NCBI GenBank assembly: GCA_028289645.1
Contig: JANQOK010000017.1
Coordinates: 1-64,000, forward strand
DNA from: Anderseniella sp.
Lineage (GTDB): Bacteria > Pseudomonadota > Alphaproteobacteria > Rhizobiales > Aestuariivirgaceae
DNA length: 64,000 bases
Direction: 5' to 3'
The notes under the pieces were generated by a model. It saw only the letters and a list, made by a program, of their open reading frames with translations, made no database searches and had not been told where the DNA came from. Both the position numbers and the translations under genes were made by a program. This document shows, in pieces, positions 60,420 to 64,000 of this stretch (position 1 is its first letter; each line of letters begins with the position of its first letter).

Positions 60420-61922
60420 TCAAACTTGCTTCAAAGCTGCCGCAACATCTATCAGCCCCGGACCAGTCGCGCCGTCGCGTCCCGATCCGGCAGGCATGCC
60501 GCCATTGTTCTCGTTGCTTGCAGGGTTGGCCGCTCCATTGAGGACGTCACGGGAAGTTTGATTTAGGACTGCCTTGATGTCGTTCGCATTAAGCCCCGGG
60601 TTTTTCTGCAGCATCAGTGCGATTGCTCCGGCCATCTGCGGCGCCGCAGCCGATGTGCCGCTAATCACAGCCCAACCATCGTTAGTCGCCGTACTGTCAT
60701 TGTTCTGGCGGTCGATCTCGCAATTTGGCTGGAGTGGCAGCATAATATAATGCGCACCGTTGTTGGCCAGTCCCACCAGTCCGCATGCGTCCGGCACGTC
60801 GCGACCGGGATAGATTTTCGAAGAAAAGGCGCTGGCATAGTCCGACGCTCTCATCGCGCCGTTCTGCGCCACGTAGACTCCGCCGGCTGAGATTACGTCA
60901 GGCATCATGCCGGGAAAAGCAACATGACCGTTTCCGGCCGAAAATACGACGATGGTGCCGCTTGCGGCAATCGCCTTAATCTCCGCCTCCAGCGCCTTGA
61001 GGGAATTTGGAAGCGTAGAAAGGTGTGTGTTGCTGGTTCGCTCACCTCGAATGTTTGTGGGGCACATATCGTAACCAAGGCTCACCGAAATCACCTGCGG
61101 ATTGTGTTGCATGGCCGTTTGAACGCCTTCAAGGATGGTCGCGCCGTTGGCTGGGAAACTTTCGTTGTCCAACTTCACACCTGTGAAAGCCACGTCCGGC
61201 GCCATTGCCAGCAGGTTTGCAGATTCCGCAGTGCCATGGCCGTTCCCGTCGAGGTTGGACTCGGTGGCACCGGGTGCCAACACCGTATTGGTCTGATAAC
61301 CGCGAGCGCTAAAGTAGGCGTGATCCATTGCGAAACCGCTATCGATCATTGCAACTCGGACGCCCTTGCCAGTGATGCCATCGCGGTGTGCAAGGTCAGC
61401 ATTGAGCAACATCGTTACGTCACCCGGTACCCGAAGGTGATGGTAACCCACGGAAGGTGGCATCGCTGAAGTTGATCCCGGAAACAGTGAATTCATGTAA
61501 ATGTGCGGCCATTGGATGTAGGCGTCGTCAATTATCGCCGCCAGTTCATCGTTTGGACGCCAGGGAGCATCCTGTTCGGGGAAATAGAATGCGTTTGCCT
61601 GCCGTTTTTCGCCCTCGTGAAACGGAAGACGGTGACGTTTCAACTCGGTACCGAAAACGGTTTCATACACCTTCTTCGAACATCGGGCTGTTATTGAGAA
61701 CTGTCCTGAGCCGGTGACCTCGAAGCCCATTTCCGTGAGTTTCGTGATGGTCACAGCAACATGTTCGGGATCTGGCCGCATTTGCTCTAAGGTAGCTTCT
61801 GTGATCGCACCGGAGAAGGCAACAGGCCCCTTGTTGTTACCGCCACCCGGTAATGTAACGGCTATCCGGACGGTGTCTGAGGTCTTACGGCGGGTATATG
61901 TTTTCTCTTTGGATGTGGACAA
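60420..61922 (-). CDS. S8 (subtilisin-like) serine peptidase with N-terminal kumamolisin-like prodomain, no signal peptide
   Basis: Catalytic motifs VAMIDSGFAMDH (Asp), LDGNGHGTAES (His), VVFSAGNGH (oxyanion Asn), ISGTSAAAPQMAGAIALML (Ser). Prodomain HVAVTITKLTEMGFEVTGSGQFSITARCSKKVYETVFGTELKRH. TTG start preceded by GAGGAG. Confidence 0.88.
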   Translation of the reverse strand: MSTSKEKTYTRRKTSDTVRIAVTLPGGGNNKGPVAFSGAITEATLEQMRPDPEHVAVTITKLTEMGFEVTGSGQFSITARCSKKVYETVFGTELKRHRLPFHEGEKRQANAFYFPEQDAPWRPNDELAAIIDDAYIQWPHIYMNSLFPGSTSAMPPSVGYHHLRVPGDVTMLLNADLAHRDGITGKGVRVAMIDSGFAMDHAYFSARGYQTNTVLAPGATESNLDGNGHGTAESANLLAMAPDVAFTGVKLDNESFPANGATILEGVQTAMQHNPQVISVSLGYDMCPTNIRGERTSNTHLSTLPNSLKALEAEIKAIAASGTIVVFSAGNGHVAFPGMMPDVISAGGVYVAQNGAMRASDYASAFSSKIYPGRDVPDACGLVGLANNGAHYIMLPLQPNCEIDRQNNDSTATNDGWAVISGTSAAAPQMAGAIALMLQKNPGLNANDIKAVLNQTSRDVLNGAANPASNENNGGMPAGSGRDGATGPGLIDVAAALKQV

Positions 61923-62026
61923 TGTTCACTCCTCAAACTTGTGTCAGATTAGCAACATCCAAAAGTGTTGTTGGAAATTTTCTCTAGTTTACCTTACGTT
62001 AATAAAGCGAAATGTCAAATGCTGGA

Positions 62027-62341
62027 TTAGAAATGGCGGGCGGGTGGTGTGATCGAGACGTGTTCGATATATGGTGCCAGTTCCGACGGAATTTTTATAA
62101 TAGGTTTGTCGAACGGTGCGCTTGCGCCGATGGTCTCAGAAATTCGAGGAAGCGGGTCGGGCAATTTGCGCATGCAGCTTTGGAAAACCTCATCAAAATC
62201 TTCCGGTTTGGCCACAAAAGAAAGCGTCACACGACCGCACCCGGTCTTCTCTAGTCCGCGCGCGACAAAAAAATCGACTATTTTGCTGCGCATCTCCTCT
62301 GTCTGACCTAGTTCGCTGAGGCTGAGAGAGAATCTGATCAT
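62027..62341 (-). CDS. 104-aa protein resembling a stand-alone prodomain of the adjacent S8 peptidase
   Basis: GLEKTGCGRVTLSFVAKPEDFDEVF aligns ungapped with prodomain GFEVTGSGQFSITARCSKKVYETVF; SELAPYIEHVSITPP parallels DELAAIIDDAYIQWP. Same strand, directly upstream of the peptidase; AAGGA upstream of ATG. Confidence 0.65.
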   Translation of the reverse strand: MIRFSLSLSELGQTEEMRSKIVDFFVARGLEKTGCGRVTLSFVAKPEDFDEVFQSCMRKLPDPLPRISETIGASAPFDKPIIKIPSELAPYIEHVSITPPARHF

Positions 62342-62664
62342 TGCTCAATCCTTCAACCGGTTGGAAATCAACAGTGTAGCGCGTTTTCATCGGGGTTTCA
62401 CACCGGTGCGTCACTATCATGTCACTGACCCGACGACCTCAGCGTTCAACGAATTTCCCATTGCTGTCATCTCGCAGCACCACAGATCCAAGAAACTTGA
62501 CGTTTGTCCAATCTTAGTTAACTTTGGGCAATTGGGAACATTTAGGTTAAAGGGTACGGCCATGATAACAAGCAAATATAGCAATTAGTAAATTTATGTT
62601 CATCTGAGAGTCGAATTCTTGGATTGGTTGCATCATTCGATAAATACCGGAGAAACTGCGGGAC

Positions 62665-64000
62665 GTGGCAGGAAAAGAAAATCTGAATTTTCTTAAAAAC
62701 AGAGCGTTGCGTCTGCTTGAAGATGTTCTGATCACCTTTGGCGCAACTGACAGCACGAACTATTTTTCCGATACTCCAATCCGAGTAACCGTTTGGCGTT
62801 CTTTTGCTGCAGATCCGAGATGCCAGCATCGACTATTGATTGAGACGAACAATCGAATACGGGGAAACAGTGCGCTCACTTTGCTTCGAACAATAATTGA
62901 AGAGTACCGAGCATCTTTTGCCGCTGGCTCAAAAACCAGGTTTTCCGAACCAAAACTGGTGGCGTTGGGCAACATAGTTGTCGTAACTGCGGATATGGAC
63001 GCAATGATCCGCGCGATACTTCCAAGTACGGTCTGGTTCTCTCAACTGGATCCGGAAAAAGTCCAGGGATGGATTTCCGATCTGGGATATGTACCGGAAA
63101 CCAGAAACATTTTTGAGCTTAGAGAGTTTCTGACGAATTCTGATCAAATAGCCCTATGGCGATTTCTGGCGGCATGGGTCGCTATCAGGAATGCTGATGC
63201 CGAAGCCCATAAAGCAGCTACGAAGTCGGGCAAGCCAAGTCAGAGTGTCCGGTGGCGCGTTTTAGGAGATACCTGTTCTGCGCTTTTGAAGGTCGCGGCG
63301 CACGATCTGCAAAATTCAATCGACCCGTACGAGCAAAAAGCCGCCCATCGCGCTGTCAAACGCTTCTTCAAGAAACTGCTGAACGATTACATTGATGAGA
63401 TTAAGCGTTTTGCTGAGATCCAAAGCAGTTCTAAAGACAAACAGCCTGCTATCTGGTCAATTGACCTGAACCGGACTGGAGATTTGGCATGTATGAAATC
63501 GCGTAAGACCGTAAAGATTGACGCGGCTGAGAACGTTTTTCAGATTTCAACCAAAGGTATTAACTGGGCGATACTCGATAGTGGTGTCGACGCTACTCAC
63601 AAGGCGTTCTTGAAACCCGGTACCGATCTCAACGGAGAAACAAGCCCAGCTCAATCCAGAGTTAAAGCTACGTACGATTTCACTCGCTTGCTGAATTTTT
63701 TCGAAGGGGATTACAGGAAGATAGTACCTGAAGAACAGTTGATCGAGGCCAAGAAACTGCATCCGAACGAGACTGAAAACAATGCCGTTCTGCTATTTCT
63801 TTATACAACGGGGTTTGTCGAACGCAACGATCAGTTGTCCAGGAAAAACTTTTCTCACGCATTGCAAGATGAGGCAACTCTGACAAACGTCCGCAATTAT
63901 GTGGAAGACGTCAAAAGGCGTCTTACAAACGGTGATTACCTTGACTGGTATTTATTGGAGCCGTTTTTGCGAATTCCCCATTGTCCGTCACATTATGTGC
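62665..64000 (+). CDS. S8-family peptidase-like protein with long N-terminal region (partial; runs off the window, not in the ORF track)
   Basis: Open frame with no stop from GTG 62665 to 64000 (VAGKENLNFLKNRALRLLEDVL...); catalytic-Asp motif KGINWAILDSGVDATHKAF at about 63556-63612; GGAG 12 nt upstream of GTG. Confidence 0.75.
   Translation, partial: MAGKENLNFLKNRALRLLEDVLITFGATDSTNYFSDTPIRVTVWRSFAADPRCQHRLLIETNNRIRGNSALTLLRTIIEEYRASFAAGSKTRFSEPKLVALGNIVVVTADMDAMIRAILPSTVWFSQLDPEKVQGWISDLGYVPETRNIFELREFLTNSDQIALWRFLAAWVAIRNADAEAHKAATKSGKPSQSVRWRVLGDTCSALLKVAAHDLQNSIDPYEQKAAHRAVKRFFKKLLNDYIDEIKRFAEIQSSSKDKQPAIWSIDLNRTGDLACMKSRKTVKIDAAENVFQISTKGINWAILDSGVDATHKAFLKPGTDLNGETSPAQSRVKATYDFTRLLNFFEGDYRKIVPEEQLIEAKKLHPNETENNAVLLFLYTTGFVERNDQLSRKNFSHALQDEATLTNVRNYVEDVKRRLTNGDYLDWYLLEPFLRIPHCPSHYV

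Follow-up and report, generated by a model that had tools for sequence, protein, structure and literature searches.

A free-standing paralogue of a subtilase prodomain encoded beside a bacterial S8 peptidase, most likely an inhibitor in trans

The small gene, its partner subtilase and their surroundings

The window analysed here, a 64,000-nucleotide stretch of an Anderseniella sp. contig, carries near its end two neighbouring genes on the minus strand that are transcribed in the same direction. The upstream gene, P0001 (62027–62341, read from 62341 to 62027), was defined from its open reading frame (ORF) and translation, its homologues and a prodomain hidden Markov model (HMM), and encodes a prodomain-like protein of 104 aa. 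Its ATG start codon is preceded, 7 nt to the 5' side, by GAAGGA, a plausible ribosome-binding site. An overlapping upstream ORF of 75 aa (62193–62420) was considered as a frameshifted N-terminus of P0001 and rejected, because the orthologues at two related loci (L012 and L013) start at the predicted start and no added N-terminal piece is needed. The spacer to the next gene, P0002, is 104 nt long (61923–62026, minus strand); a terminator-like site was looked for there and none was found. We infer that P0001 and P0002 are co-transcribed.

P0002 (60420–61922, minus strand, read from 61922 to 60420) encodes an S8 (subtilase) peptidase of 500 aa, as identified by Pfam Peptidase_S8 (PF00082, E 1.6e-26) and by its orthologues, and starts with TTG preceded by GAGGAG. 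About 160 residues precede the catalytic domain, and within them lies the peptidase's own prodomain, whose part homologous to P0001 was delimited by hhalign at approximately residues 40–158 (61449–61805, minus strand). Asp194 in DSG (codon 61341–61343), His229 in GHGT (61236–61238) and Ser424 in GTSAA (60651–60653), all on the minus strand, are invariant in two alignments; they correspond to the catalytic residues of the S8 family, and the catalytic triad is intact. Neither P0001 nor P0002, when the N-termini were read from sequence, has an apparent signal peptide, and the protease would therefore be intracellular. A full-length structure model of P0002 reached a pLDDT of 37 and was not used.

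Searches of Pfam, NCBIfam and PADLOC, including the PADLOC defence models, gave no match to P0001; a direct scan of genome contigs found no relative, and comparison with 150 related genomes returned chance-level matches only. Relatives of P0001 were instead reached through a search with the peptidase. For P0002, the PADLOC models gave only a generic weak subtilase match (E 1.4e-8). Peptidases of the P0002 type were not found in viral contigs and phages, and few whole genomes encode one: 1 of 399 in the phylum, 1 of 385 in the class and 3 of 398 among relatives, each count including the window's own genome.

The sibling genome G001, whose TrpE is 96% identical, is collinear with the window only up to 60119; at about 65980–66077, past the window's end on the same contig (L029), part of the trpE 5' end is present again in degraded form. 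For these two reasons, the pair is probably part of an acquired island, about 5.9 kb long, which would span approximately 60120 to 66077 and be inserted upstream of trpE. The GC content of 62665–64000 is 0.47, against 0.58 for the window.

This low-GC part holds a divergent operon on the plus strand (62665–64000 in the window, continuing to about 65948; L008:2666-5949) that encodes a second subtilase, of 711 aa, and an MBL-fold protein. PADLOC models matched the operon as subtilase (3e-43), LmuA (1e-53), Avs1a (7e-29) and RTasMBL (1e-27). Nuclease-protease pairs have been described with trypsin-like and caspase proteases, in a main text that names neither subtilase nor subtilisin (PMC12799240), and the divergent operon looks like a subtilase version of such pairs. 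Since the other pairs of small gene and S8 gene lie in different surroundings, this operon probably does not belong to the system. The 711-aa peptidase was considered as a target of P0001 and rejected, since the prodomain HMM gave no match to it and pairs of small gene and S8 gene also exist at loci that lack it.

Relationship of P0001 to the subtilase prodomain

A preliminary description of this DNA, made from the sequence alone, had aligned P0001 by hand with the prodomain of the adjacent peptidase and reported an ungapped stretch of about 25 residues. We found this stretch between residues 29–53 of P0001 and 66–90 of P0002. BLASTP matched the two proteins weakly, with 7 of 31 residues identical and an E-value of 0.051 as a single comparison, and the hand alignment alone could thus be due to chance. 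Profile methods gave a firmer result. An HMM built from seven S8 prodomains alone and searched against the 2383 ORFs of all loci recovered P0001 at E 5.4e-4 and 17.0 bits, whereas 3500 shuffled small proteins scored 7.0 bits at most; the other ORFs at E < 1 were exclusively S8 prodomains or small ORFs adjoining them. In the reverse direction, an HMM of the small proteins recovered S8 prodomains (E 2e-13 to 8e-4), and every other match had an E-value of 0.8 or more.

Profile-profile comparison with hhalign, the check that the preliminary description had proposed, aligned seven small proteins with seven prodomains at 98.8% probability (E 5e-16, 113 columns). Three of these small ORFs (L015, L017 and L018) had been selected visually, in part because they look like prodomains, and the unbiased figures are therefore those for four small orthologues (96.7%) and for the three closest (94.8%); a reversed control gave 0.6%. 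Together, the prodomain HMM and the profile-profile comparison establish P0001 as a homologue of the N-terminal prodomain of the neighbouring subtilase. Profile searches of the PDB with the small proteins or the prodomains recovered no solved propeptide, only chance matches such as troponin C and MurA.

The type of prodomain probably differs from that first proposed. An inhibitor of the I9 type had been suggested, but Pfam Inhibitor_I9 (PF05922) matched neither P0001, at E-values up to 10, nor any other member scanned. Pro-kuma_activ (PF09286) gave weak matches to three of nine prodomain and small-protein fragments, with a best E-value of 4.2e-4, and one full S8 peptidase scored 12.9 bits, below the curated cut-off of 23.5; P0001 itself had no match to this family. 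The S8 group thus likely carries, to judge from these matches, an activation domain of the S53 (pro-kumamolisin) type rather than an I9 prodomain. In contrast to the PF09286 arrangement, the domain would here be attached to an S8 and not an S53 catalytic domain, and would also occur as a free protein.

Structure prediction agreed with the profile evidence. The AlphaFold2 model of P0001, for which four sequences were used, has a mean pLDDT of 73 and a pTM of 0.63. Its elements follow the order βαββαβ (E2-8, H15-27, E31-35, E39-44, H46-53, E92-98), with a low-confidence loop at residues 68–80, and the protein is predicted to adopt a prodomain fold whose best match among solved structures is a subtilisin prodomain. 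Neither outcome that the preliminary description had named as refuting, an unrelated predicted fold or a lack of any profile match to S8/S53 prodomains, occurred. Foldseek against 350,542 PDB chains placed the subtilisin prodomain 3cnq_P first (probability 0.97, E 0.063). Other subtilisin prosegments took ranks 4 and 8, the top ten including 1spb_P and 1scj_B, and rank 10 went to POIA1, a stand-alone inhibitor, in complex with subtilisin (1v5i_B). In a library of viral models, ranks 1 and 3 were giant-virus proteins named 'Subtilase family serine protease', aligned over 105–108 columns with TMq of 0.60 and 0.57. The E-values are weak, at best 0.063 in the PDB and 0.016 in the viral library, and both of these independent libraries rank subtilase prodomains or subtilases first.

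Recurrence and age of the gene pair

A small gene and an S8 gene with a homologous prodomain adjoin in seven loci, which span Alpha- and Gammaproteobacteria, Actinomycetota and Cyanobacteriota. The peptidase search yielded three close loci, L012 (81% identity), L013 (80%) and L014 (56%), and further relatives, two of which are in the same order and several on plasmids. The small gene lies upstream of the S8 gene in the window, L012, L013, L014, L017 (Nonomuraea) and L018 (a Calothrix plasmid), and downstream of it in L015 (G267). At L012 and L013, the small proteins occupy the same position beside the peptidase and are 47% and 52% identical to P0001 over the whole protein. The small ORFs of L017 and L018 each resemble the prodomain of their own neighbour, and that of L018 is annotated as hypothetical protein WP_035159825.1. 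By eye, a tyrosinase-like gene and a gene for a membrane protein resembling DUF2182 precede the pair at L012 (2156-6503), and an apparent fragment of the same type of membrane protein precedes it at L013 (4232-6488).

No small gene was detected near related S8 genes in Rhizobium (L019, L022), Paenibacillus (L020), Mesorhizobium (L021) or G390 (L016), and the small gene is therefore not obligatory for this S8 family. In the two Rhizobium leguminosarum plasmids (L019:2038-8299 and L022), the related S8 gene is embedded in a conserved gene series that includes folE, adenylosuccinate synthetase, purB, queE and IMP dehydrogenase, which suggests a purine-like natural-product cluster. On the Paenibacillus amylolyticus plasmid (L020:3866-4831), the annotated peptidase relative has 321 aa, lacks a prodomain and starts almost directly with the catalytic domain.

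These arrangements bear on whether P0001 could serve as a folding chaperone in trans, a role that the preliminary description had named together with inhibition. S8 prodomains act as folding chaperones as well as inhibitors (PMC10580911), and the mostly 5' position of the small gene would let its product be made first; P0001 might then help P0002, or a subtilase devoid of a prodomain, to fold, with any inhibition being incidental. However, the partner peptidase retains its full prodomain in every pair seen, so that a second chaperone is not obviously needed, and no small gene was detected at up to 4 kb from the sole prodomain-less relative, that of Paenibacillus. We consider a chaperone role fairly unlikely, yet a serious alternative.

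The preliminary description had also called P0001 a copy of the prodomain, and of this the homology stands, while a recent duplication of the P0002 prodomain does not. In the core, P0001 is 19% identical to the P0002 prodomain as opposed to 45–55% to its L012 and L013 counterparts, and in the tree a clade apart from the prodomains (support 98/98) unites the four proteobacterial small proteins. Because P0001 falls with small proteins from other genomes rather than with its neighbour's prodomain, the split predates these species. The Calothrix and Nonomuraea small proteins retain, in the core, roughly 50% identity to the prodomains of their own neighbours, and the tree does not resolve where they belong.

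Compared between the same loci, the small proteins are 44–52% identical and the peptidases 79–81%. Differences between the small genes reach 0.64–0.66 at third codon positions, versus 0.22–0.38 at positions 1 and 2; these figures were used alone because dN/dS is saturated at synonymous sites. By these comparisons, the small proteins are diverging faster than the peptidases while still being under coding constraint. A bare prodomain adjoining a protease that already has one might be what is left of a protease gene that arose by tandem duplication and then lost its catalytic part. Yet the free-standing gene recurs in seven loci and four major lineages, upstream as well as downstream, its codon positions show constraint at the protein level, and the proteobacterial small proteins form their own clade, all of which makes such a fossil highly improbable. 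Most likely, P0001 is a prodomain paralogue of long standing that evolves on its own and acts in trans as an inhibitor of the protease with which it is paired.

Proposed inhibition in trans and comparison with known systems

The C-terminus of P0001 bears on this proposed function. The hexapeptide PPARHF (62030–62047, minus strand), proposed from its conservation to be a product-like tail at P6–P1, is the best-conserved hexapeptide of the protein, with 5 of 6 residues identical among the window, L012 and L013 as against 35 of 104 overall (p 0.016). In the model, the last strand ends at residue 98, leaving exactly these six residues. The subtilisin BPN' propeptide has a pattern of a small Ala at P4 and an aromatic residue at P1. 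The tails of L012 and L013 are extended by 7 and 4 residues, respectively, and the last residue of the L018 protein is Pro, so a product-like end is not universal. With the tails in register, the helix-capping Glu69 and Asp71 of the BPN' propeptide (PMC6993865) seemingly correspond to Ser/Thr here.

Propeptide C-terminal tails sit in the subtilase cleft in a product-like manner and affect potency (PMC10580911). Because PPARHF is conserved and propeptide tails dock in this way, we rank inhibition in trans first, and give a probability of roughly 0.6 that P0001 binds the mature catalytic domain of P0002 and inhibits it. In this mechanism, the peptidase's own prodomain would serve folding and first inhibition, and the PPARHF tail of P0001 would dock in the active-site cleft in the manner of a product, as a cleaved prodomain does. 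A peptidase's own prodomain is normally cleaved and degraded after folding, and a separate prodomain would therefore supply inhibitor independently of the amount of zymogen. P0001 might thereby shield the cytoplasm from early or stray P0002 activity.

Two other readings were considered. As a regulatory or targeting subunit, P0001 would bind the zymogen or the mature enzyme for substrate recruitment, tethering or signalling rather than for blocking; the faster divergence of the small proteins would fit partner- or substrate-specific roles, and helix 2 is joined to the last strand by a long, variable loop with low model confidence. Given that the best-conserved part is the C-terminal tail, which fits docking at the active site, and that P0001 has no extra domain, we regard this role as unlikely. 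Alternatively, P0001 could be a substrate or competing peptide, that is, a precursor cut by the protease whose prodomain similarity reflects recognition. Prodomains are themselves degraded by their own proteases, and the L012 and L013 proteins carry residues beyond the conserved ARHF, as if trimmable. The similarity nonetheless covers the whole prodomain fold, and the protein lacks a signal or leader peptide as well as a short hypervariable core, which makes this reading very unlikely.

Antitoxin-like control by P0001, as the preliminary description had put forward, would require a toxic protease and found no support. In a related and fairly doubtful scenario, the pair would be a mobile protease-inhibitor module in which the separate prodomain keeps an intracellular subtilase in check and loss or degradation of the inhibitor, for example upon infection, frees proteolysis, so that it acts as a toxin-antitoxin system or a gated defence effector. 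In this genome, the pair shares its probable island with the 711-aa subtilase and its MBL-fold, nuclease-like partner.

Among the closest known systems are free-standing, prodomain-like proteins that inhibit subtilases, described chiefly in fungi, plants and apicomplexan parasites. Stand-alone propeptide-like inhibitors include POIA1, Pbi2 (the yeast peptidase B inhibitor), Arabidopsis SPI-1, TgMIC5 and Plasmodium SUB1-ProM, the last of which is encoded beside subtilase genes and has a fold closest to the SUB1 propeptide (PMC6993865). The characterised inhibitors listed there are eukaryotic, and the I9 trio is without significant sequence similarity (PMC6993865). P0001 resembles the I9 stand-alone inhibitors as a small free protein with a prodomain fold, here a predicted one, and, like SUB1-ProM, it is encoded next to a subtilase. 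It differs from these inhibitors in being bacterial, in its detectable sequence homology to the neighbour's prodomain and in having no Inhibitor_I9 match.

Spi, the SpeB inhibitor of Streptococcus pyogenes, resembles the SpeB prosegment. The genes of Spi and of the staphostatins are transcriptionally coupled to their protease genes, and these inhibitors are thought to block prematurely active protease in the cytoplasm (PMC3462683). P0001 shares with them the pairing of a small, in our case putative, inhibitor gene with a bacterial protease gene, whereas their targets are secreted cysteine proteases (C10, C47) and the folds are unrelated. The Bacillus intracellular subtilisin Isp1 has a dedicated protein inhibitor, IPI (BsuPI) (PMC3901451). 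An intracellular S8 protease with a dedicated inhibitor is likewise what we infer for P0002 and P0001; IPI, by contrast, has an Ig-like fold and not that of a prodomain, and the Isp1 propeptide is short, at 18 residues.

A bacterial stand-alone subtilase prodomain was not described in any paper found in the literature searched, which lies mostly outside subscription journals. Such a bacterial family would show how inhibitors arise through the splitting-off and duplication of prodomains, would assign a function to small hypothetical genes undescribed in the family libraries searched, and would offer, in P0001 and P0002, a simple bacterial system for comparing prodomain control in cis and in trans. 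Collectively, our analysis suggests that P0001 most likely works like POIA1, Pbi2, SUB1-ProM and Spi, as a bacterial variant that is new to the literature searched.
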